Positions 7,440 through 49,000 of a stretch of DNA of 64,000 nt are shown here, piece after piece. This stretch comes from Sipunculus nudus. Lineage: Eukaryota; Annelida; Sipuncula; Golfingiida; Sipunculidae. The position numbers were made by a program, and so were the translations under genes. Under the pieces are notes generated by a model. It was not told where the DNA came from, made no database searches, and saw only the letters and a list, made by a program, of their open reading frames with translations. How positions within the stretch are numbered: position 1 is the stretch's first letter; each line of letters begins with the position of its first letter. The stretch lies in NCBI GenBank assembly GCA_026874595.1, contig CM049322.1:58557886-58621885 (forward strand), given 5' to 3'.

Positions 7440-7880
7440 TAATATTTATAACAGTATACCACAGAAATTTAAATTTATATGTATACTACAAAACTATATG
7501 TTTTATGTATTACAGTATCCTACAGAACTATATAGGTATGGTGCAAAACAATAATGCTATTTGTACGCTACAGACATACATATGTGTTATTTGTATACTA
7601 TAGAACTATATATTTTATATGTATAATACAGAAATTTTTGTTATATGAATACTTCATAACTATAATTGTGTATGTCCACTACAAATCTCTATATGTTATA
7701 CGTATACTGCAGAATTATATATGTTATATATATGTATATATACACTAAAGAGCTATAATGCAATATGTATAGGTCCAGCTACAGTGCTTTATATTTTATA
7801 TGTATACTACAGAACTATAATTTATAGATTATACTGCAGAACAAAATATATAGATACACTACAAATCTATTATTTATTTT
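7440..7880. repeat. Diverged tandem array, unit about 40-45 bp
   Basis: The block TATGTATACTACAGAACTAT recurs with changes roughly every 40-50 bp (for example near 7480, 7520, 7595, 7700 and 7800). The copies are well decayed, so this is an old satellite-like array. The Tyr/Ile-rich reading frames across it are not genes. Confidence 0.7.
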
Positions 7881-8895: not shown

Positions 8896-9845
8896 ATCGT
8901 CTATTGGAAAGTTTGAATGATCGATTGCCAATACCTTCACAGCACAGGTAATCTGTTTCCACGAGATAAACGGGAATATACGAAGATAACAGGTTTCGGT
9001 TTATCACAGCTAAATTTCTGAAAATGTGGTAGAGTTATATACGGGTCACATATATTTAATAGAGAAGTACTGTAGAATACAACGATCCATCTGTAAATCA
9101 TATTAATAAAATATGAAGGTAATTAGGAACCATGAAATAAGAAATTTAAAATACCCGTTCTGCTGCCACGTATATATATTATAGTTATAGTCCTAAGTAG
9201 GTTTTACAATATAACCTCTGTATGGAGGAGAAATACAGGATATTGCATCACCCACGACAAGTCAATCTTGAACAAGCGTAGTAAATTATATTCAAAACTA
9301 GCTATTATCCGTGCTACGCAAAGTTTATGGCGAGGAGTTAGTTCTGATGTTTATTATCATAGTTGAATGTCTTAGTTGTACAATGTTACCATCATACGAT
9401 CTCTTCAAAGACGACATTTGGTGTAAGTTTTCCGTCTTTGAGTTGACCTTGTGTCTGCAAGCGAGTCTGATCTATCGTGAAGATGGCATTACTGTATGAC
9501 CTAGGCACTTTTTGGGAACGTTGAAAAACGACAGATGGCGAGTCTGTCCTTTGGGACAATAAAAAAAGGTGGAATGTCTTCGGACAAACCCGGAGCATGT
9601 GTATGTCGAAAATCACAGCAATCCGTACGGTGGTATCAGGAGAGATACAGAAAAATCACACAAATCGCATTGAGCTATTAATATATAGCCTAGATGCCTG
9701 AAACCACCGAAGCATGCAAAAGTTAAGTAACATGCTGCAGTAACAGCCGGGTCCCCTACGAGCGTCAGTTATCTGATTATCACCCGTGCCCTATACCGGC
9801 AACGGCCTAGAACTCGGAGCAATAACACGATGCTCGAACGTGCTT

Positions 9846-9849
<4 letters not shown>

Positions 9850-9903
<54 letters not shown>
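9850..9903. repeat. (TA)n microsatellite
   Basis: About 54 bp of TA, 150 bp upstream of the first confirmed exon of the CARD-like gene. No gene is seen in 8900-10050. Confidence 0.95.
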
Positions 9904-10052
9904 GTGTTAAACTTGGGTCACCTTTACCAAGACAAATGGTTAAAAGTAATTATCAGAGAAATCTTATGATCGCCTCTTACAGGAAGACCGTTTTCCTCAC
10001 ATCAGCCTGACACACACAGTCCATCTCACCATGATGTTGTTATGTTTTGTAG

Positions 10053-20944: not shown

Positions 20945-23900
20945 TTATGCCACATCTATTGGCAGATTGTCAGTGGAAGTGTGTCTGACTTTTCTCTGGA
21001 TCTCAGACACGTATTTCTGTGGCAAGCCAAGCCCTCTGAAAACATCAAAGTTGTATGCTCAGTGTTATCAAAGGCTGTAATGTAACAATTTCTCACCATT
21101 CATTACTTATACTGACCCTGGGTGATGCTAGACTGCTTTTTTCAATGGATGATTAATTGTTGTCAAGTTTCAACACAGGGACAACTGACAATGCCAATAT
21201 AATATTTGACCATGTTTTGGAATGTATTGAGGTGGGAGAGCTGGTGTAATGGTCAAGGTGCCTGGCATATGATCGAGAGGTTTTGAGTTCGAATCCTGGT
21301 CAGACCCCCACCGTACAAAGACCCTGGGGCAAGGTCCCAACTGCAAGTGTGCCTCTGTCCACCCAGCAGTAGAAATGTATAAAAGTAAGTACTGGGAAGG
21401 TCACCTGCAATGGACAAGCATCCCAACCATGAGGAGTTTGACTCAAAAGTTGCTTCATGCTGCAGAAACCTGGACAAGCTCTGGCCTGATCAGCCAGTAG
21501 GTTCAGGTGTAAAAGCCCAAGCACAATGTACTGGTGTATCACTGCAGCCAAGGTGTTATTACAGAACTGAAAACACCCAGGTAATACCCAGCTGGAGGAT
21601 ACATTTTCAATGGCAAAATTCTTGCCAAAACTATATTTCCTGGAATGTCATGAAAATGCTCTGCAATGATAGAATGGCTGCATATTGTGCCACAGTGTGT
21701 AAATATCTTACCTGTACTGGCTACATGCTACCAAAAGGGCCATGTAATATGGCTGAACTTCACCAACAGAGGGTACACATTTCAGTCTGTTTCTGGTGAA
21801 ACCAGAATAAATTTAAGTAATTTAAACAAATTTCTTCATGTTAAGCTTCTACCTTAAGAAACTTTGATGGTGTTCTCACTCATCACCTCAGGGTTGCAGG
21901 TTTGTCTGATAAGCTGTTCCTCTACACTAGCACACCCTATCATGGGGTTTTAACACAAAATATTTCCTCTACACAAATCTGTTAGTTGGTGGTGAATGCA
22001 TAATGACTGAAAGCAACATTTAAATTCATTATCATGGCCATGTCTTTCACGTAAAAAATCCTTTTTTCAAGGTCTTAACCAGAAGGAGGCTAACTTTTTT
22101 TTCCAAGTTGTGAATAACCACTGAGACTGGATTGAAGAATAAGCTAAATTTAGGAAGTCACCATTCATAATGCAAAAAAAAAAAACAAAGTTTGGTTCCT
22201 GACAGACAGCATCAGAGCAACACAACAATTTCAATGAACCCAACCCCATTAAAAATTTGATATTCAGTAAAGTTTACCCATTTTGAGCTCCAGCTGCTTA
22301 GGCATCTCTTTCAAGATAAGAAAATAACAGACTTTTTCTTTTTCACTTTTACCTGTATAGCAAAAATTCTGTTTTATTTCTGGACATCTTAATGTCCCCT
22401 GGTCATATGTAATTTCTACTAAAAGAACTATATAAAAAACAAGTAAAAATTATTTGCCCACCTGCAGTGATTTCATGTTTTCCTTTCAAAATGTTATTTT
22501 TCACTCAGACACATGACAAAGGTGAACATGACAAGGTCTGCCCTAAGGTTTCAACCAGAGTCAAATAAGTATTGACCTCTGACCAATTACCTCAAGCCAG
22601 CATTAAAGCTGGCATTAGGATACATTTAAATATACTGCCTTAAACGTTACGCTTACATTTTCTATGCGTTGGCGAAAAAACTAAAAAAGTTAAGGCATCT
22701 CACCTGAGCTCTGCAAGTTTCTTCCTCTTCACCTCCTCGAGTCGCTGACGACGGAGTCGCGCCTCTTCATTCAACTTGACGCCCTCGGTGAAGAAAGCGT
22801 TACGTTCTGATACCCGTTGTTGTTCCTTTTCACGGATCTGGTTACGCACATCGTCAGCATATTCCCGGCGTTTTCCCATCTTGGACTCAATTTCTCGCTT
22901 CTCTTTTTCTGCCAGTTCTTGCTGTGCTCTGTAAAAAGAAATTTTTTTTGACATACAAAAGAATTCATGCAGCCAGAAACAGTAACAAGAATCCCTCTAA
23001 ATATATTACTAATAACTACCCATAATAATGGACTAAATATAAAAGTTATGTTCCATGCAAACTGAAGAGGAGAAATAAACATTATTTGGTCTTTACTTAA
23101 ATATAAATGGATATATTTTATAAGAACTGTACAAAAAGCTGATACATAATGCCAGGCAGTCTCCATTGCTAGGCACATGTTGATTTGAGAAGTTTCATGG
23201 GTAGGAGGAAACTGGAGGACATGGAGAACACCCACAAACACTGAATGGGCCACTACGACCAACTCTCATAGTTGGGCTGGGAATTGTCAGGGGAGAGACC
23301 AGAGCTTGTAAACATTTGATTTTCTAGGCAACAGCACTTGCATTTCTGCAAATTTATCCAACAGCTGTTCTTTGACCTGGATATTTTTGTTAAAGTTTTA
23401 ATTTTAAAGCAGTTTTCAGGAACACGTTTGAACAAGAAAGTATATCAGTTTGAAATCAAAATGACACCTAACCCTACACTGATGTATCACTTATCATATA
23501 GTGTGATGGGGACTGTATGGTTACATAATGTATCATAACAGGCAATGAAGTGAAGCTCTTACACTAGAACCCGCTCAAAGTCTGCTCGCTCTCTCTGAGC
23601 CTGGACGGCCAGGAAGTGTTCCTTCTGTTCCATCTGGTGAGAACGAGCCATTTTCAACATGGCTTCCGTCTCTGCCTTCTTACGTGCTTCCTCAGCCTCT
23701 TTCTGGCGCCACTCTCGCTGTGCCTGCTCTTGTGCACGCTTAGCCCTATTAAGAGATATACATTAATTAACACAATTTGACCAACAATCAACAAATACAG
23801 GATCAAACTGAGCAGGTGAATACAGCACCCAGTGTAAACAGACCTTGCAGTCTAGAGGAAAAGAACAATATTTAAATTTCTATGACCACTAAAACATGTT

Positions 23901-26900
23901 GCTATTTAATTGAAAATAAACAGAGGCAGATTTGGATTATTCAGAAAACATTTAATCTAGCTTTACATGTGTATGTCCAGTCAATCTTTACACTTACAAA
24001 TGAACAAGAAAGGCCACATTAACCTCCAAACTTCAAATTTCCAAAATATATTCAAGCTGCTTGTCATTAAAAATCACTCATACACATTCTAAAGCAGAAG
24101 AAATAAAATATCTAAACTTGTTATAAAATGATTTAAGAATTTCATAAGAAGTTCAAATGTGACTTTATAATATTTTATTCTTATACACAGTTGAAGTTTA
24201 TTACAAAAAATTCTGAAATTAATTTAATTTCTTCCCAAAAGCCATTTTTCAATGATGTTCATTTATAACTAATTAATAAGAAAACCAAATAAACTATACC
24301 TCAGTGCATCCCTCTCGGACTGCTCATCACGTGCTCTCTCCTGCAGCGCCCGTAACCTAGCAACCTCTTTTTCTTTCTCAATTCTGATTCTTTCTTGTTC
24401 CTTCTCAAATGCCATTTCTCTCTCCTGAAGATGAATAAACAAAAATATCAAGAGGGCTAATTTCACATGAGAATTTCTAATTTTCTTTTCTTGCTAATTT
24501 TTAAAGTTTTGGTCATGACCTGCAGATGGTTCCACCTCTTAAAATGGAAATGAAAATAACTGTATGGTCACGGAACAAGGATGTCATTACAGCTTTTCAG
24601 GTGCTAGAATGAATAATATTTCTATGCATAGTTTAGTAATAATTATAATTAGAAATAATGTTATTCAGGCAATTCAACAAATTAAAATTTCTCTATGCAA
24701 GAGTATGGAAGTGATCCAGAAGTCATGTTATTTATTCATCAGCAAAATATCTGTGTATTCAGCTGAAAGCTGAAATTCCTTTTTCTGCTTTTTAATATTT
24801 CCATAAATAGATATTTATTATATAAGTTAAAATGAAACCAGAAACGACAAAGTGATTTTATGCTGACGAGTATATGTACAACGACTACAGTAAAATGTTT
24901 TTGGTTACTTGACCAAAAGGAAAATGGTTAAAAATCATTCTCAAGCCCTGCCAGGTACAGGTTTCTTTTGTATCCATGAATATTTGTGTAAAAAAGTAGA
25001 CAAAAAAATACAACAGGTGACTTACAGCCTTTTGTTTCTGGTATTCGAGGACCTTGGCCTCTGCCAGGCGTTCTTGATCTTTGGCAAGTTCTTTTCTTGT
25101 TAAAATCTCTGCGTTGCACTGGTTCAGGTCTTCCTGTGAAAGAAAAATGGAAAAATAAAGTCAAAATATTAACAATGAAACCATTCCACACAAATATACA
25201 CAGATACACTCAGCTTTTTTGTATGCTTTGAATTTTTAGGGTAACATACTGTCAGCTTGAAACAGTGACAGTGAAATTTTAAGTGCAATATCGGAAAGCA
25301 GATAATACAGTAATGCAAAAGAGTACACCGATTATTATATAAGCAAGCAAGACAAAATGGGAAAAACTATAGGTCATTTTAAAGAAATGCTCACAGAAAT
25401 CTATATACTTGTGATAATGATATAAAATATTAGAGTTAATGTAAATATGCTGGTAACACTGATCCAGAGTTAATAAACAACTGATGGAAATTAATGAAAA
25501 GAAATGCAGGAACTGGTAACAAGACATGCATCTTCCAGTGGTATTATAGGTGGTGTCCTGTTCTTGTCAGAGAAAAATTTACATGATCAGATCAGAAGTT
25601 ATAGTTGGCACGTGTTTTTCCACTGGATTCAAGATACTGTACATGGTTACTGACCCTGAGTGGTTTCTGTACACAAATGATTACTTACCCTAAGTGGTTT
25701 CTGAACATTGATGATTACTGACCCTGAGTGGTTTCTGTACATGATTACTGACCCTGTGTGGTTTCTGTACATGATTACTGACCCTGTGTGGTTTCTGTAC
25801 ATGATTACTGACCCTGTGTGGTTTCTGTACATGATTACTGGCCCTGAGTGGTTTCTGTACATGATTACTGACCCTGAGTGGTTTCTGTACATGATTACTG
25901 GCCCTGAGTGGTTTCTGTACATGATTACTGGCCCTGTGTGGTTTCTGTACATGATTACTGGCCCTGAGTGGTTTCTGTACATGATTACTGACCCTGAGTG
26001 GTTTCTGTACATGATTACTGGCCCTGAGTGGTTTCTGTACATGATTACTGGCCCTGAGTGGTTTCTGTACATGATTACTGGCCCTGAGTGGTTTCTGTAC
26101 ATGATTACTGGCCCTGAGTGGTTTCTGTACATGATTACTGGCCCTGAGTGGTTTCTGTACATGATTACTGGCCCTGAGTGGTTTCTGTACATGATTACTG
26201 GCCCTGAGTGGTTTCTGTACATGATTACTGGCCCTGAGTGGTTTCTGTACATGATTACTGGCCCTGAGTGGTTTCTGTACATGATTACTGGCCCTGAGTG
26301 GTTTCTGTACATGATTACTGGCCCTGAGTGGTTTCTGTACATGATTACTGGCCCTGAGTGGTTTCTGTACATGATTACTGGCCCTGAGTGGTTTCTGTAC
26401 ATGATTACTGGCCCTGAGTGGTTTCTGTACATGATTACTGACCCTGAGTGGTTTCTGTACATGATTACTGGCCCTGAGTGGTTTCTGTACATGATTACTG
26501 ACCCTGAGTGGTTTCTGTACATGATTACTGACCCTGAGTGGTTTCTGTACATGATTACTGGCCCTGAGTGGTTTCTGTACATGATTACTGGCCCTGAGTG
26601 GTTTCTGTACATGATTACTGGCCCTGAGTGGTTTCTGTACATGATTACTGACCCTGAGTGGTTTCTGTACATGATTACTGGCCCTGAGTGGTTTCTGTAC
26701 ATGATTACTGGCCCTGAGTGGTTTCTGTACATGATTACTGGCCCTGAGTGGTTTCTGTACATGATTACTGACCCTGAGTGGTTTCTGTACATGATTACTG
26801 GCCCTGAGTGGTTTCTGTACATGATTACTGGCCCTGAGTGGTTTCTGTACATGATTACTGGCCCTGAGTGGTTTCTGTACATGATTACTGGCCCTGAGTG

Positions 26901-29900
26901 GTTTCTGTACATGATTACTGGCCCTGAGTGGTTTCTGTACATGATTACTGGCCCTGAGTGGTTTCTGTACATGATTACTGGCCCTGAGTGGTTTCTGTAC
27001 ATGATTACTGGCCCTGAGTGGTTTCTGTACATGATTACTGGCCCTGAGTGGTTTCTGTACATGATTACTGGCCCTGAGTGGTTTCTGTACATGATTACTG
27101 ACCCTGAGTGGTTTCTGTACATGATTACTGGCCCTGAGTGGTTTCTGTACATGATTACTGACCCTGAGTGGTTTCTGTACATGATTACTGGCCCTGAGTG
27201 GTTTCTGTACATGATTACTGGCCCTGAGTGGTTTCTGTACATGATTACTGGCCCTGAGTGGTTTCTGTACATGATTACTGGCCCTGAGTGGTTTCTGTAC
27301 ATGATTACTGACCCGGAGTGGTTTCTGTACATGATTACTGGCCCTGAGTGGTTTCTGTACATGATTACTGACCCTGAGTGGTTTCTGTACATGATTACTG
27401 ACCCTGAGTGGTTTCTGTACATGATTACTGACCCTGAGTGGTTTCTGTACATGATTACTGGCCCTGAGTGGTTTCTGTACATGATTACTGGCCCTGAGTG
27501 GTTTCTGTACATGATTACTGGCCCTGAGTGGTTTCTGTACATGATTACTGACCCTGAGTGGTTTCTGTACATGATTACTGGCCCTGAGTGGTTTCTGTAC
27601 ATGATTACTGACCCTGAGTGGTTTCTGTACATGATTACTGACCCTGAGTGGTTTCTGTACATGATTACTGACCCTGAGTGGTTTCTGTACATGATTACTG
27701 GCCCTGAGTGGTTTCTGTACATGATTACTGGCCCTGAGTGGTTTCTGTACATGATTACTGACCCTGAGTGGTTTCTGTACATGATTACTGGCCCTGAGTG
27801 GTTTCTGTACATGATTACTGGCCCTGAGTGGTTTCTGTACATGATTACTGACCCTGAGTGGTTTCTGTACATGATTACTGGCCCTGAGTGGTTTCTGTAC
27901 ATGATTACTGACCCTGAGTGGTTTCTGTACATGATTACTGGCCCTGAGTGGTTTCTGTACATGATTACTGGCCCTGAGTGGTTTCTGTACATGATTACTG
28001 GCCCTGAGTGGTTTCTGTACATGATTACTGACCCTGAGTGGTTTCTGTACATGATTACTGACCCTGAGTTTCTTCTGTTCCTCCCTCCTCTTCTCCAGCT
28101 TCTCTGCTTCCTCCTCACACAGCTTGTCCAGGTATTTCTGCATCATCCTGTTCTCCTGGTCCTTACGTTCAAGTTCTAGTAAACGTTCCTGTAAAAAATA
28201 CAGCAGTATATTATCAAGACTTACAGCTCCTGCTATCCTGGTCTTTACGTTCAAGGTCTAATAAACGTTCCTGTAAAACGTACAGCAGTATTAGTAGTAT
28301 CAAGATTATCTGCTTAATTGGTTTGGATAGCTGTACTTGTACATTCTACAAAAGAGCTGAAGGCTTTCAACAGTAACAGGTCTATATAACATTAACTGTT
28401 ATAACTGGAACATGACTGTGCAATGATAAAATATGAGAAAAATTACGCAGTCTAAAAGCAGGAAAGTATAGTAAATTATTGGAGACAATTTTTTTACATC
28501 GGAAAGTTACTAAATCTGCTATTTTGTTATTTTCTCTGTAATTTAAATCCTAGAAAGTACTGGTGTGGTGCCATCGTTATTTAAGTGATCCCTGAGTTAA
28601 GAGTATAAATAATACACTATTACTGGGAGGGGTACGCTCTCTCTGGGCTCTCTCACCTGTTCGTTTTCTTGGATCTGTTCCATGACTTTGTAACATCCCA
28701 GCAGTCTCTCCTGCTTACGTTTCTTCTCGATTTCCTCCTCGACCTGGATAGAGTTCTGACGATCGATCTCCATCATGTTGTCAAGGCGACGCTCCTCTTC
28801 CTGCATCTCCTTAATGATCTGATCCCTCTCCAGGATCTGAGCGTCACGGATCGCGTGGCATTTGGCGTTCAAAATAAGCTGCAGAAAACAATATTAAACA
28901 ATCCTGTTACAGTGCTATTTCTCTTGTCACTGATCGTATAGCATTTGGTTTTGAAAATAGGCTGCCTAATACCAAATAACAATGCTGTTACAGCGCTATT
29001 TCTCTGACTGTGGATTGGGTGGCATTAGTCGTTCAAAATAAGCTGCAGAAAACAAACATAATACTGTGTTATACTGTGCTATTGATTTACTAGTGTTGTG
29101 CCAGTTAATCCATTATATCAATGATTGGTTGGTTTTTTTATAACTTGAGGAATTGTCTCAATTGAAGACTAATGAAATATAAATATCCAGATTAAAAAAA
29201 AACCTAAACTGATATTGAATTTACAACATCCCAATTCTTTCTGCTTTCTTACTATTCAAACCTATTTTACACACAAACTGTGCTGACAGGAAGGCTTTAT
29301 TTTCAGGCTGTTATTATTTGTTTTGTGTGCCTGTCATGTCATATAGGTATGCCATGGGTTCTGACATCTAGTATAAGTATTAAGTAGTATTATAAGGTAG
29401 TTTGGGAGCTGACTTTATTTTATACAAGAATTTCTTTAATTTTTATTTTCAAAAGACTGTACTAGAGGGTACTGCAAAATATAAATTAATATATGTTTAA
29501 ATTTCCTCTTTATCCACAGGGAAGAAGCCTGTTTGGGGGTTATTTTGGATCACTAAAAATGCTATAAAAATGGTGGTGCTTGTCGAGGCATTTCTGTATC
29601 TATTGGGAAAAGCTGCTTATACGTTCATGTCATATATATGTTGGGGTGGATTTTTGAAGGGGGAAATCATGGGAAATTTTTTTGAGCCTACTGAATCTGG
29701 ATAGGCCCCAGTTCATGGCAGGTGAACAAACAATATCCAATGTAAAGTGTCAGATAGAAGTTGCATCAACAAGTATGGGTTACAGCCCAATGGAAATGTT
29801 ATGCAAGCCGTGAGGTTTGCGAGGCTTGTGTCAAACGGCTAGCAAGCCGATTAGGCGATCCTGCCATGATTGACACAAGCCAAGCAAATCTCATGGCTTG

Positions 29901-32900
29901 CTTTACATTTCATTGGGCTATAACTGATTTGTCCCACATGCTCTGCCTCCTTGGTCGAAGGTCACGCAATATTTGGAAAGTCACCATGCAACTTCACTTG
30001 CATGGTCTCTTTTCATGTCCCTGCAAGCAGATTTGAAAGTACAGTTAGAACAAAGGAAAATAGGCCGCATGTGGCACAAATATACTTGCGTGCATAGCTA
30101 TCTCACTACAAACACCCACTAACTCAGCTGGCGGTGCAGGTAACATCCCCTTTCAATGAAAGTAATACCCGCTGGTAGCCATGATTTATAGCTGAAAGTA
30201 AAGTCCGGGCAGGCCAATTGTGTGACATCATTCCCAGGTCCATGTAAGTGACAATATTAACATGGGTTCATGGTCACTTTGCCGCTTCCAAATGAACAAA
30301 TGTTAAGTATCTACTTTAGTAAAGTATTTGCTAATAAGTGCTCATTAGTCTATATAAGTATACCATATATTGACTTTGAGAACCCAAATTACTTTATGCC
30401 AATGGAAAAAAAATACAGGGCTTTCAATAAGAATAAAATTTGAAGAGGCTGGGACGCTTTGGGGAGTCCCATCTGAATTTGGAGCGTGCAAAAATGATAT
30501 GTGTCAAATTCTGAAGGATTTTGTAAAAACTGAATATTTTCATATTTTATATAAATATCATATCATTATATGTTTAGAAAATGTGTAGTTAGATGAATAT
30601 TTGCCTATAGCAAAATATAGGCCTGAGATATCAGAGCAGCATTTAAACAACTGACGGATTGTTAGAAGCATCCCCTGGGTTATGGTCATTGACTGGTCAA
30701 CACAGTACTTAAGGTACTAAAGCCAGAAATTTGCACGTCTCATCAGAAGTGAGCATATTTTAGAGATTTCAAGTGTCAGGTACACTTACCCCCGCACTTA
30801 CGTCCTGAAGGCCCTGAAAAGAGTCATAGATTTTCCTGAAGAAGCCACCAGTTGCGTGATAGCAGGGGAAATTGACAATCAAAAGGAGACCATTTCTGCT
30901 TATTGTAAAATTTGGTCTCTGACAGGCTTAGACCTGCACATAAGTCAACAGCCCCTAATCAAGATTATTTTTTGGAACGAATTTCCCGCCATATATTCAG
31001 CTTTTTAAGGTAATACAGAGATAAGAGCACCTGTGCCATTAATCCACAGTCTACAAGTATATATCACCTCAGATATATAATACAAATATAAGAGCACCTG
31101 ATTAAGGGCCATTTATCCACATTCTACAAGTATATATCACCTCATTCAGATGTTTGATCTCATCCTCCTGCTCTTGTAGCTGCTCGATCGCTTTCTGTCG
31201 GAGATGCTCTCCCTTCATCTTCTCCTCCTCCTCAAGGTCGTTCAGCTTCTCGTTCTGACGACGCTGAAGGTCCTTCATTTTCATATAGTTCTTACGTTCT
31301 TGAACTGCATCCTGGGAAATGTTTAAAATATTTTTAATTAAAATCAATTTTTAAATTGATGTAGGGTTTAACAATGAAGACCACCAGACTTGGCCTGTCA
31401 AACTGATACTGCAGGAAACATGTTAAGCAGAGAAAAATGCAAACTAACAAGTTTGCAAACTAGGATTGACCAACTGCTGGAAAGAGTTGGTTGTAAAATT
31501 GCGCTTTAAATGGCAATAATAAAAGATCAAAGACAGATTCCAAACTTCTTGTGCAAAATTTATTTCTAAACTATATAAATATTCAATTTTGTCACATGGT
31601 TCAGGGAAAAATTATCTGAAACAGACCCTTAGATTGGTTAGCCTTTCTCCTTGTCATGCAGTAATTAACTGACAAATCATCATTCAAATAACATCCAACA
31701 AAAAACATTTTTTCTTACATGGTGCTGACACAGTTTGTTATTTGATGTTGGACATTATATCTCTATTGGATAATAAACAGCATTAACTTATTAACCCAGG
31801 ACATAAGACAGTGATGTTATACTGACTTTAAACCAAAACACATTGATGTAACATTGTACTGTTACAGTCCTAGTGCCTGTAGATTAATAATAAGTTTACT
31901 TATTTCTCAGGTATATACTTCAAGAATACATGATTGTAGCATACATACCAGTATCTCTTCTTTTTCACGCTTCTGTCTCTCCATAACTGCATCCTTTTCC
32001 TGTTTGGTGAGGACACGAGACATGCGCTGGATTCTTTCAAACTCAGCTCGCGTCATGACGATGCTCTGACCTGATGGATCATCTTGTGGTACTCTGGAAT
32101 AAAATACAAAACAAACCCTGATGTTGTAGCCTGCTCTCAACATGAAATACTAAATACTGGGCCTTAAAATTCACCATAAGAAAGGGATTAAGAGTCACTG
32201 CACTAAATTTTATGCATTCTGTAATTCAGCTTGGAGACATGATTCAGTAATGACAAGATAAGAATATAAATGAACAAGAGGCCCATGGGCCATGACGCTC
32301 AGCTGAACTTGAATTACAAGCATGTTTTGCATGCAAAATCTAATGAATATGTAGTCATCAGACATTAGTTTTAACTGGTATTGCAAGAATTAAATTTTGC
32401 TGGTAACAGCATGTTGCGCATACAGACTAGAAATAAAGTGGAACTGCAAGGTTTTTTTTGTTCTGGAATGCACAGACAATGAATAAATGATAAATCAACA
32501 TACCAAACTTGAGCACATAACCTGGTGTTGAGAAAATGGAACAACTATATTTTTTCTAGTGTAAAACAACAAGGCCTCATGGAAACATGTGTAATGGAAT
32601 AAACAGCAGGTTTAGTGCTTGGGTGATATGTGTGTAGAGGAGTTATGTCACACTGGAGGACAGATTGGCATGAAATCAGTTTTATGGGGTTTCAGGATTC
32701 CTGCTGATAAAGCGACATTTTACATTTAAATTTGTATTGACTGTTTTAAAAAAAACACTTAACTTACCATGAAAAGGCATGCCAAGGTGTAGGAACAGTT
32801 GAAGGTTAAAACATGTGTTCCACTTGTAATCTTGCCATCATGCCAAAGTTATTTATGGATGTCTAGAATCTTGATGTGAACTGATGTTGGGATTGTGTGA

Positions 32901-35900
32901 AGGCTATTTATAGAGACTAAAGGTATTGATGAGATCTGGTGTTGTTACTATGTCAAAGAGATTTATAGATACTTTTATCAGTTAGCAAATAGTTATTTTG
33001 TTGAACAAAGTGTTTTTCATGCTAATATATTAACTTTTTTGTATCAATATATTCTGAATATTAATAGATGGCTAGTGAATGAAAAATCAGATACAGAAAT
33101 CTTATTTTTGGAATAATCTTATGTATACATAAACATTAGTTGACTTTGTACAGCATAATAAATATTCATAGAATATTTCAGGTCAGATGTTATATGTTTA
33201 GACAAATAGGCTACAAGGTTGCATGACTAAGGTTAACATCCGATAATTCACTGCAAAATGATTCAAATGGACTGATTAAACTTAATTAAAAGAATTATTA
33301 TTTTGGAGATCATTCTTGAGTAATATGAATCAAATTTAGATTTTGCAGACACAAGGTGGTCATAATAAGATACAGGAAAATAACAAGTTCAGGTTCTTAT
33401 AAAACCAGTTGAAAAGAATGGTTGTAGTTTGCTAATAATTTCAGAATATTATGGTACAGCTAGTGTGCAGTGCTTTAAGCTAAGTTGGGTGAAATATTTA
33501 ACTATTTGGGTAACAGAGACCTTTTTCTAAGTTTCTAAGATGACTTTTAATGGGCCTCCCTGCATGTCAAGAGAGAAGATTCTAGGTCCAGGCGTTACGA
33601 TTTGTGCCCTGTTAACAGATGACCCAATCTTAAGGTCTCACAAATAGAGAAAATAATTCGTAAAAATCGAAAAAATACAGGTGGCGCCACCAGACTGCAG
33701 AAACTGATGAAACATCCCATGATCAATATCCATACAAAGAATCCTGGTGATCAATGCAATAGTTGTTCAGATATTTGAGCTTTTGTATCAAATTTTCCAT
33801 TATTCTGGGGGGTACTTCTGAGCCCCATAGCTCAGAGGTTATGGGTAACAGAGACCTAGTTTCAGGTTTCCAAGGAGACCTTTCATGGGCCTCCCTGCAT
33901 GTCAAGAGAGACGATTCTAGGTCCAGTCATTAGGATTTGTGCCCTGTTAACCGATGACTGCATCTTTTAATGTCTCAAAAATAGAGAAAAAAACATGTAA
34001 AAATCGAAAAAATACAGGTGGCACCACCAGTCTGCAGAAACTGATGAAACACCCCATGATCAAAATCAGTGCAAAGAATCATGATGATCAATGCAATAGT
34101 TGATCAGTTACTTGAACTTTTGTATCAAATTTTCCATTATTCTGGGGGGTAGTTCGGAGCCCCATAGCTCAGAGGTAATGGGTAACAGAGACCTTATTTC
34201 AGGTTTCCAAGGAGACTTTTCATGGGCCTCTCTGCATGTCAAGAGAGAAGATTCTAGGTCCAGTCGTTACGATTTGTGCCCTGTTAACAGATGACTGCAT
34301 CTTCAGAGGTCTCAAAAATAGAGAAAAAAATTCGTAAAAATTGAAAAAAATACAGGTGGCGCCACCAGTCTGCAGAACTGATGAACCACTCCATGATCAA
34401 TATCCATGTAAAAAATCATGACCATCAGTAATGTAGTTAATGAGATATTGAAGTTTTTGTATGAAATTTTTTACTATTCTGGGGGGTACTTCGGGGCCCC
34501 ATAGCTCGAAGGATATCGGTAACAGAGACCTAATTTCTGGTTTCCATAGACATTTTTTCATTGACCTCTCAATGTCTCAAGAATGAAGATTCTAGGTCCA
34601 GTCTTTACAATTTGTGCCTTGTTAAGAGATGTTCACATTTTTAAAGGTCTCAAAAATAGAGAAAAAAATTCGTAAAAATCGAAAAATACAGGTGGCGCCA
34701 CCAGTCTGCAGGAACTGATGGAACATCTCATGATCAATATGCATGCAAAAAATCATGACCATCAGTGATGTAGTTAATGAGATATTGATGTTTTTGTATG
34801 AAATTTTTGACTTTTCTGGGGGGTACTTTTGGGCCCCATAGCTCAAAGGATATGGGTAACAGAGACCTAATTTCTGGTTTCCAAGGAGATTTTTCATGGA
34901 CCTCTCAGAATGCCAAGTTACAAGGTTTTAGGTCCAGCGGTTACGATTTGTGCCTGGTTAACGGACGGACGACGGACAAAGAGTGATCGCTATAGCTCAG
35001 ATGACTTTCAGTCAGCTGAGCTAAAAATCTGTTGGGAAATGAAATACTTTCCTACTGCTGAATGTTATTGAAATTTGTTAGAACTGTGATTAGCTGCATC
35101 ATAGGACAAACTGTATTTACTGCATTGATGTTAAATGACTAAATAGAGAACATTGTACAAAGAAATTAATACAAGCACAAACTATGTTTAACAGTTGGAT
35201 GACCTGGCAATTATAATTCAGGAATTTTTTACTGTGCAATTCTCACAACCAATGCACAGACATGAACAATTGTGTTTTTGATTCAGGTATGCGCAAGTTG
35301 CATTTTTCATACAATTATTTGATACTGTCTCCTGACATGCTATAACAATAACTCATAACTTAATCCTTATTACAACTTTTTTTCAAATCTGCTGTTAAAA
35401 TTAGTTTAGGTGCACCTGTCCACATCAGAATCAATGAACTTACATGAGATTCCTGATAAGGTCTTTAGTGATGACCTGCACCGTCTCCTTTCCGTTGTTT
35501 CGGTTCCCTCTTTTGGCGCTCCTCTGCGCTGCCTCCTTCTCTAGCCGAGTGTTCGGCTCTGTGGCCCACCTTTCCTGTAGCATCTCGTCTCTTTTTGTGG
35601 CGCTGTGTTTGGAGCCAAACAGGGACTCGTCTACTTGTGAGCATGGTGCTACAGCCCTGTACTGTCTTGTTCGTGCTCGGCGAGAGCTGGCTGAGGAGTG
35701 ACTCCCTGAACCTGCGCTGATGGCACTGCCAGGCTGTAATCAGAAAATCACAAGCTGCTCTGCATCAGGTCTTCTTTATTATTGTATATTGACCAGCTTT
35801 AACTGCCCTGAAGCTTCAAGAGGAAGTGTATTTTTTTTTATCAGCTGTTTAAAAAAATTAACAAACATGATGCTGATATATATATAACAGAATAAGCAGG

Positions 35901-46060: not shown

Positions 46061-49000
46061 GTTACAGCACAAAGAAGCTGACAAACTCCCAGGTCAGGAA
46101 GAAACGTAATGATTTATTTGGGCAGGAGAAGGCGAGGCAGCTGTCCCTGGTCTCTCGCATAGAGAAGATCAAAGTTGAACACAGAGGGCCCCCGGAGGAA
46201 TGCTCACTGCTCATGAACAAAAACCTGTCCACGCCATTCAACTGTGCAATGCGTAAGTATAACAGATGTGTCATATCCCTAGACCATAATAGGAGGACAG
46301 TTGTAGTTGGCTCTTGATAATTGGCAAGGTTTGGATTGATTATTGATAAATCACAGTTGATTATGAAGATATGTGTAAATTTTATTGATCAGTGATCCAA
46401 GGTAAAAGATAAATATCAATAATTTTTTTAACGGTAAAGTAGATCATCTGACAGTCCATGGAGGCGGTGCAGCCACAATAAAACAGAACCAGAAGACTTT
46501 CCACATGGTGTTGAGTAACTGACAAAAATGCTACATTTCAACTGCATTTATTTGCCATTCAAATATCTTGATAATCTCAACTTAGAATCATTGTTGTGTC
46601 ATTTTCTGTTCCTCGCATTATTAACAATAATCTATAACATGAATGGTTTTTTTTAACAGTCTTACAGTCAGAGCAGTTGATAATCATATCAAACTTTGTC
46701 AGACCCTTGTATAGTCACATTTTGAATTCAGAGCCATCTACAATCAGTTCTGTGGTCTAGCATCAATTTATATTTTGACATATCATGCCAGCCCTACAGT
46801 AAAAAGAGATTTCAAATTTAAGTTTACTTAACTTCAGTTTTTAGATTTTTTGAAAACTAAAAATACACTAGGAGCACATGTACTAGCAATGGGTATAAAG
46901 CTCAGCCGACTATCAATAGTGATGGGCCTTTGTAAAGTTATGAGATGTATGCGCAGGCGCGGATACAAGGACTGGCATGGGGGTGCACCCCCCCGCACCC
47001 CACCATTATGTAAAATCCTTGACACCCCCCCCCCCCAATTGAAAATGGAACCTCCTATATTGCTCTTTGTTGTTTCAGACATCAGTGAATTACTAATGGA
47101 CAGATCAGTGGTGGCTTTGGTAAATGGAGAACCATGGGACATGCACCGCCCCCTGGAGGAGGACTGTGAAGTTAAATTCTTGCATTTTAAAGATGAAGAT
47201 CCAAGCCTCAGTAACCAGGTAAGTTGTTAAGGTCAAAGGTTAAACCACAGGTCAGTTGTTAAGGTCAAAGGTTAAACCACAGGTTGGTGTTTAAGGTTAT
47301 AAATCACAGGTCAGTTGTCAAGGTCCAAGGTTAAACCACATGCAGACAAAGGGCGTTTGGTGATCAGTGTTAACATTGACTGGGTAAACTCAGGTAAATC
47401 TCAGAGTACAGTGTATGCTTTTTTACTGTACTAGAAAATCTTTATAAACCCCCTTGGTGCAGTATTGTGTTGAAATGACCATATTATCATGTAGAAGTTC
47501 ATGTGAAAATGTGTATCGCTGTTAACTTACAGCTTGATGACAGATGACTTGTGGATAAATAACCCAGGGCTGCTAACACTACAGTATATGTTTGGTTGTG
47601 TTTTAACACAATTTATTTTCAGAACAAAACTTTACTTGATATTTCAGACTTTCTGGAGGTCTTGTTCCTTCATGCTGGGCCATGTCCTGGAGACGGCATT
47701 TAAAGATGAACATTATGTTGAGCTCTGCAGCTTCCCAGCTCCAAATGGTAAGACAGTCATGTACCCGTAATGGTTCTGGACGTGAGACCACAAGGTTGTG
47801 GGTTCAAGTCCCATTCAGAAGGCCTTCCTCACTAAGACCCCTGGCGAAGGTCTTTACCACAATGTTGAGTGCTCTCCACCCAGGGCTTATTGGGTACTAG
47901 TCATACATGGGTGACAGGAAAAATGTAGAATATATTATCCAATTGTGTCTATACAAAGGTGTGTGTTTGGCTGTATCCTCCCCAGGGAAATGAGAAAAGC
48001 TACAAGAATGAACAGGCCCTAGATCAGGAAGGCAAATTTTAAAGTCAGATGAGTGAAGTCAGACCATAAACCCCAACCTTTACCTACCATTGAAACTAGC
48101 CTTCATGTAATATTACCAAGTGGACTGATTTGCACTACTGTATTTTACCACATTCTCTTCATAAAATGGAAAATAAAAAATCTTGGTGCTTAATAAATAT
48201 AGAATCAGAATTTCCCAACTATTTTCCTGCTGCATTGAACATGGTCAGGAAGGCTGATTGACAGCTGGAGTTGAGCGATAGTAAAGGATTTTTTAGTATA
48301 TGAACAGTTTTGGTTTAATTTTCAAATATATAACAAAGTTTTATCTTATTTATTGCTTTGAATTTTAAATACTTCAAATATATCTTTGATATGGCTTACA
48401 ACCCCAGAGAAGTGATAAATAATATGGAGACTGATGGGTATGAGGCACCTGTTTTGTTGACCTTGTTTAAAATTGTTGTTATTCGGTTGATGGCACTCTA
48501 TGTGCTGGCACTGGGTAGCAGATTATCTTAGGTGAAAGAAGGTATATAAAAACGTGTATAAAACGTGGGGTCTGGACAGCATTGCTGTGTGAAACATAAA
48601 AAATGAAATACAACAATCCACTTGGTTACAATTTTGATTTTTACTGACTTGAAACAAATACTGCATTTTATATTTAAGTTATTTGTAGATTCCTCAAAGG
48701 TAAAACAGTTATGGCTTAAAGAATCAGCAAAATTTATCCATTGCTGAGAATAGAGTTTGTAATATATATACAAACTTCTAACACTACAACAGAATATGTT
48801 ACCTCTCAGATAATTTATAAAATAATTCCCATAAACATTTAGGGGATTTAGAACAGTTATGGATTTACACTGATGTGCTCATCTTTTCCAGTAAAGAGCG
48901 GGAGTTTTGTGTATGATGCTTTCCTTGACGTAGAAGACTGGAACCCAACAAGCGTAAGTCTGGCTCCACCCGTTGTCAAGTTGGTCAACTAAGAAACGGA

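Follow-up and report, generated by a model that had tools for sequence, protein, structure and literature searches.

The 64,000-nucleotide stretch of the Sipunculus nudus genome analyzed here (contig CM049322.1, positions 58,557,886 to 58,621,885; hereafter the window) contains the cilia gene CFAP45, in which a long minisatellite begins at the splice donor of exon 6. This raises the question of how such an array arose at an exon edge, and whether the row of donor copies that it carries alters splicing. The array was found to be a real, locally born, donor-spanning minisatellite, belonging to a kind that is already known.

Tandem Repeats Finder (TRF), run on the window, detected a repeat of period 30 at 25637-28069, with 80.8 copies and 97% matches. 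On the minus strand, the array spanned 28068 to ∼25638, its start being inside CFAP45 exon 6. The 3' end of this exon, ...AAACTCAGG at 28063, was followed by GTCAGT, and the junction was internal to the repeat unit, CTCAGGG[T/C]CAGTAATCATGTACAGAAACCA (30 bp). The sequence-only reading had reported this overlap of a 30-bp array with the exon end (CTCAGG at 28063, then GTCAGT), and TRF and the sequence agreed with it. There were 78 near-identical units, followed by a half-intact 79th, in which the first 18 bases alone were intact, and by two diverged units. The locus thus belongs with short-unit tandem arrays (at least 10 copies), with 78 near-identical 30-bp units and three diverged ones. The array exceeds chance expectation, and the best 20 of the 55 direct-repeat families in the window were all shifted copies of it. 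Only 3 of the 30 columns varied in units 1-78, namely column 8, which is donor position +2 (25 T, 53 C), column 2 (74 T, 4 A), and column 4 (77 A, 1 C). This near-identity points to recent expansion or homogenization; the diverged units sit at the intron-side end of the array.

To establish the gene, charged minus-strand open reading frames and splice boundaries were used to join ten exons. A PDB search with the joined protein found ten distinct CFAP45 matches with E values of 1e-20 or below, in keeping with the earlier naming of the gene. The best match, 8snb, aligned over residues 7-536 with an E value of 2.6e-149, giving full-length similarity to a solved CFAP45. We take 8snb to be a sea urchin chain and the next four chains to be mammalian; that the sea urchin chain scored better fits an invertebrate gene. 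All five printed alignments, out of the ten CFAP45 sequences matched, crossed the exon 6-exon 7 junction (...EEQKKLR/EDLNQCN...) with zero gaps. Since this junction is gapless with the donor at 28063 and zero extra units, we take 28063 to be the normal exon 6 donor. By homology, the authentic upstream donor therefore lies inside the first unit (exon 6 end at 28063, unit 1 start at 28068). A coding tandem-repeat exon was rejected because an in-frame stop lies at 25692 and, by homology, because the five aligned CFAP45 chains carry no insertion at the corresponding position. A 405-residue CFAP45 query gave seven matches in the genome, and as all were inside this gene, CFAP45 is single copy. The same query found no retrocopies or paralogues in the genome that might have kept a record of past splicing. 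CFAP45 is described as a luminal protein of doublet microtubules. Its loss causes a motile ciliopathy in humans and in mice, and respiratory cells are said to contain smaller isoforms of it (PMC7606486, in the parts of that article used here).

The origin of the array was examined with a pattern search of the genome (1.43 Gb, up to two mismatches). At least 78 unit matches were obtained, every one in this array, and the reversed-pattern control gave 0 matches; such counts are lower bounds. A dispersed or transposon-borne satellite was rejected because no match to the unit, within two mismatches, was found at other loci. As the unit was not found elsewhere, the array was born locally, out of the donor end of exon 6. 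The final 6 nt of the exon (CTCAGG) are present in the unit unchanged, and the last 15 nt, CAGAAGAAACTCAGG, are identical to the unit, CAGAAACCACTCAGG, at 12 of 15 positions. The 9 exonic nt beyond CTCAGG agree with the unit at six, a level attained by 1.6% of the 9-mers in the window. Because the unit itself holds the exon end and the donor, contact with the exon edge reflects the origin of the array and not a collision. A 30-bp stretch, composed of ∼15 nt of the exon 6 end and ∼15 nt of intron 6, would have been duplicated in tandem, and slippage or unequal exchange would then have expanded the duplication to ∼80 copies inside intron 6. This age and mode of growth we infer as part of the overall explanation preferred below. 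The array makes up 83% of intron 6 (2,929 nt). Intron gain by tandem genomic duplication was also considered, but the last base of intron 6, at 25134, is ∼500 nt past the array, so that the intron does not lie between copies. With the acceptor outside the array, the array lengthened an existing intron.

The donor dinucleotide at +1/+2 was GT in 26 and GC in 53 of units 1-79, and GT as well in the diverged units 80 and 81. Units 2-79 therefore retained 25 GT and 53 GC dinucleotides. GC splice donors are rare, and the GT units were given more weight for this reason; the row of about 79 donor copies claimed in the sequence-only reading overstated the number, as just 26 of units 1-79 bear GT. Its statements on the reading frame were sound. 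Use of donor n would add 10n residues in frame, from a unit without a stop, and the CFAP45-frame translation, mostly LR(V/A)SNHVQKP, stayed open up to a TAG at 25692-25690, which corresponds to the stop near 25690 at which retention of the whole array had been expected to end. The unit is open in two of its three forward frames, and divisibility of its length by three is a one-in-three matter; the open CFAP45 frame is therefore weak evidence and no sign of coding or selection. The unit 2 donor is identical to donor 1, which makes one-unit retention, and with it a minor isoform longer by 10 residues, plausible. The predicted transcript with one extra unit and that with exon 7 skipped (108 nt lost) were both open through to the normal stop.

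A feature absent from the earlier reading was the donor AGG/GTAAGT in unit 80, with its last exonic base at 25689, downstream of the in-frame stop; a transcript spliced there would include that stop, at 25692. The U1 pairing energies were −7.5 kcal/mol for the unit donor AGG/GTCAGT, −11.6 kcal/mol for the distal AGG/GTAAGT, and −5.3 kcal/mol for the GC units; the other CFAP45 donors ranged from −5.3 to −11.1 kcal/mol. AGG/GTCAGT was also the best-scoring donor of one kinesin exon (L057), a point in favor of the explanation preferred below. Selection against decoy donors as the source of the GC variant was unsupported by a comparison of array halves (p = 0.33). A proximal excess of GT (15/33 versus 7/42, p = 0.01) depended on a cut chosen after looking. 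Higher-order GT/GC structure was unconvincing, with p = 0.046 at lag 8 among the 20 lags tried and p = 0.27 for runs. A search of the 64-kb window for RNA families gave 0 matches at gathering thresholds.

On this evidence, we consider it likely that the locally born, donor-spanning array is spliced out chiefly at donor 1, with a small share of alternative transcripts. The conserved protein depends on the first copy, which would for this reason stay in use as the donor. The remaining copies would be mostly silent, since two thirds of them bear GC where GT is normally needed. We infer, in addition, that a small share of transcripts would use the unit 2 donor and gain ten residues, and that the long array may weaken the splicing of neighboring exon 7, after the example of the variable number tandem repeat (VNTR) in ABCA7.

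Several points weigh against this explanation. The unit donor is of moderate strength only, and the donors of units 1 and 2 are identical, so that the sequence gives no guarantee of exclusive use of donor 1. U1 energy does not set the GC units (−5.3 kcal/mol) apart from the weakest of the other donors in CFAP45 (−5.3 to −5.5 kcal/mol). Nor are the GC units clustered by the exon, GT being found in 15 of units 1-39 and 10 of units 40-78 (p = 0.33). The alternative transcripts of ABCA7 often exceed the canonical one, and mostly silent copies are therefore not a given for such arrays. Five of nine CFAP45 introns are 468-637 nt long, yet three more are long without this array. Finally, what is proposed on donor use, polymorphism, and age would stem from the sequence of a single assembly.

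Among the alternatives, a purely neutral intronic satellite, touching the exon edge by chance and without effect on splicing, is unlikely but survives best. The genome is tandem-rich: 20 random 10-kb stretches held 5 arrays (at least 10 copies, period at least 12), the longest 2.8 kb, all of them in 2 of the 20 stretches, and some such arrays may abut exons. Chance contact is contradicted by the unit itself, which contains the exon end and the donor, and few of the edges tested elsewhere fall within repeats of this sort (1 of 80 kinesin edges, compared with 5.6% of 800 kinesin flank positions, scored as described below).

Somewhat less probable still is that the array serves to generate isoforms, several of the 26 GT donors being appreciably used, perhaps in a tissue-dependent manner, to give CFAP45 with 10n additional residues. 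The GT units are in frame and stop-free before 25692, the unit 2 copy of donor 1 would preserve the frame, and two downstream units of the IFI6 repeat reportedly act as donors (PMC4526556, in the parts used here). Against it, 53 of 79 units bear GC, and with two of three forward frames open, openness is no sign of selection. Each unit would also insert ten residues, proline among them, into what is presumably a long helical fold. This, together with the gapless exon 6-exon 7 junction in the five printed alignments, makes the length-variable CFAP45 suggested by the sequence-only reading unlikely as the main outcome. That exon 6 was formerly longer, the array being coding sequence on its way to becoming intron and the distal GTAAGT the old donor, is scarcely credible, for although AGG/GTAAGT is the best U1 match in the array, an in-frame TAG precedes it and the five aligned chains have no extra residues here. 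The coordinates on which the preferred explanation, splicing chiefly at donor 1, is based are collected in Table 1 with those of other features in the window.

Table 1. Features of the CFAP45 locus and of neighboring duplications, in window coordinates (a slash marks the exon-intron boundary).
Feature	Position	Strand	Remark
CFAP45 exons 2-11 as modeled	20945..35733	-	first exon not sought
CFAP45 exon 6, 126 nt, phase 0 at both ends	28063..28188	-	last 6 nt within repeat unit
Exon 6 donor GT, AGG/GTCAGT, unit 1	28061..28062	-	taken as normal donor on protein homology
Unit 2 donor junction, last exonic base 28033	28031..28033	-	11-mer identical to exon 6 donor; predicted +10-residue isoform
Minisatellite units 1-79	25699..28068	-	30-bp register from 28068; 26 GT / 53 GC at donor place
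Diverged distal units, small insertions	25638..25728	-	in-frame TAG 25692-25690, then AGG/GTAAGT
CFAP45 exon 7, 108 nt, 36 residues, phase 0 at both ends	25026..25133	-	skipping frame-neutral
Decayed duplicate of exon 6 acceptor side, TTTTACAG, 46 nt exon-like, GTAAGT	28225..28270	-	
Degenerate 81-bp x 2.5 repeat over exon 5 acceptor and first exon bases	28848..29055	-	
Exon 4 donor region GAG/GTGATATATACTTGTAGA, one duplicate 73 bp into intron, 26/30 identical	31035..31150	-	
32-bp x 4 array beginning at MRPL39 exon donor	47216..47340	+	exon end 47218, GT at 47219

Some of the further duplications in Table 1 raised the possibility that splice edges are prone to duplication. The score of an edge was its best 30-base match 15-250 bp away, taken over windows that covered 8 nt or more of sequence to either side of the edge, and the threshold was 24/30. 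Four of the 18 edges of CFAP45 exons 2-10 reached the threshold: the exon 4 donor (26), the exon 5 acceptor (28), the exon 6 acceptor (28), and the exon 6 donor (29). Here the exon 2 acceptor was placed one base off, and exons 1 and 11 lay outside the scoring. One donor (score 24) was found among the 8 edges of four MRPL39 exons, bringing the total to 5 of 26. As controls, besides the kinesin figures above, 6.3% of 3,920 random positions and 14 of 1,146 window positions outside 25500-28200 reached the threshold. The kinesin control drew on 40 of the 126 listed kinesin matches. Its edges were chosen inside the open frame of each match with a donor matrix and a simple score for acceptors, so that some are misplaced.

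When the exon 6 donor was set aside, 4 of 25 edges compared with 1 of 80 kinesin edges gave p = 0.011, and with the 14 of 1,146 window positions p = 0.0004. For the 3 of 17 CFAP45 edges at 26 or above, comparison with the random-genome rate gave only p = 0.055. The test was post hoc, as the copies at the exon 5 and exon 6 acceptors and the MRPL39 array were known beforehand and the exon 4 donor alone was new. Kinesin edges have fewer duplications than their flanks, and a genome-wide tendency of edges to duplicate was not supported; for a local tendency the data are suggestive. That tandem duplication arises preferentially at the splice edges of this locus, with copies partly decayed and partly fresh, is a doubtful proposition. 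On this view, tandem duplications might be seeded at the exon-intron boundaries of genes with germ-line transcription, for example through transcription-linked breaks, and in-frame-donor minisatellites would be one outcome.

The exon-like copy at 28225-28270 could act as a cryptic exon, the inclusion of which would shift the frame. In the MRPL39 array, the first donor is CAG/GTAAGT and the later copies are CAG/GTCAGT or CAG/GTTGGT; a genome search located its 32-bp unit at this site alone. AAACCAC beside the donor and GTCAGT at the donor are common to the MRPL39 and CFAP45 arrays, which may be chance. The single scoring kinesin edge, in region L068, was an acceptor with a 29/30 copy 152 bp away.

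Other tandem repeats were also observed. Intron 2 of CFAP45 holds a tandem repeat with a 337-bp unit (33507-34962). It was similar to a repeat at L010:639-2161, in a random stretch of another chromosome, and looks like a dispersed satellite or element. Units of 32 bp like ACAGGTCAAGAGTTCACTCAGTGCAGCCAGGT occurred in short arrays on different chromosomes (L013:1226-1312; L019:7269-7329, 7502-7587, and 9835-9923), consistent with a dispersed minisatellite. Two of the 20 random 10-kb stretches (L006 and L020) held long arrays of 50 bp x 57, 35 bp x 47, and 39 bp x 25, and the genome seems rich in minisatellites. A donor motif within units was tried as an annotation-free sign of donor-born arrays and abandoned, as the arrays listed included too few carriers, namely that of MRPL39 and one in L013 (AGGTGAG, minus strand). 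The consensus of the CFAP45 array, with GC and a doubled G, is itself without the motif.

The CFAP45 array adds a cilia gene of an invertebrate to the two human genes from which donor-spanning VNTRs have been described. Retention of units and skipping of exon 7 would both be frame-neutral, so that any effects on the protein could be measured, unmasked by nonsense decay. If it is true that edges seed duplications, this would bear on the lengthening of introns and the birth of new splice sites.

The closest known system is a VNTR of human ABCA7 with a 25-bp unit. It directly adjoins exon 18, its first two bases being the donor of that exon, and alleles range from ∼12 to ∼427 units. One-unit retention there is 2 ± 1%, independent of length, whereas exon 19 skipping increases with VNTR length, and in 90% of BA10 samples the canonical transcript was outnumbered by the alternative ones combined (PMC5954066, in the parts used here). 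Both are short-unit tandem arrays on an exon edge with the authentic donor in the first unit. They differ in that the 25-bp unit of ABCA7 shifts the frame and the 30-bp unit of CFAP45 does not, in that the skipped exon encodes 44 residues in ABCA7 (exon 19) and 36 in CFAP45 (exon 7), and in that two thirds of the CFAP45 units carry GC. Next-unit donor use, polymorphism, and splicing effects have been demonstrated for ABCA7, while the CFAP45 array is known from its sequence.

The second system is IFI6, whose minisatellite, reportedly the subject of Turri et al. (1995), has a unit of about 12 nt, compared with 30 bp in CFAP45. As in CFAP45, this minisatellite supplies several splice donors in a row, and for IFI6 (6-16, G1P3) the use of multiple donors, including two downstream units, has been reported (PMC4526556). 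Tandem genomic duplication is also reported to create new introns (PMC4974935, in the parts used here); the duplications there likewise carry splice-site sequence, but the CFAP45 array lengthened an intron whose acceptor is beyond it. In C. elegans, intronic minisatellites have been linked to alternative splicing (PMC4039745, in the parts used here). Limited literature searches, judged by title or the start of the abstract, found no tandem-repeat report for CFAP45, consistent with the sequence-only reading, which knew of no described case in this gene. Though unreported in CFAP45 within that scope, the array is of a kind already described in ABCA7 and IFI6.

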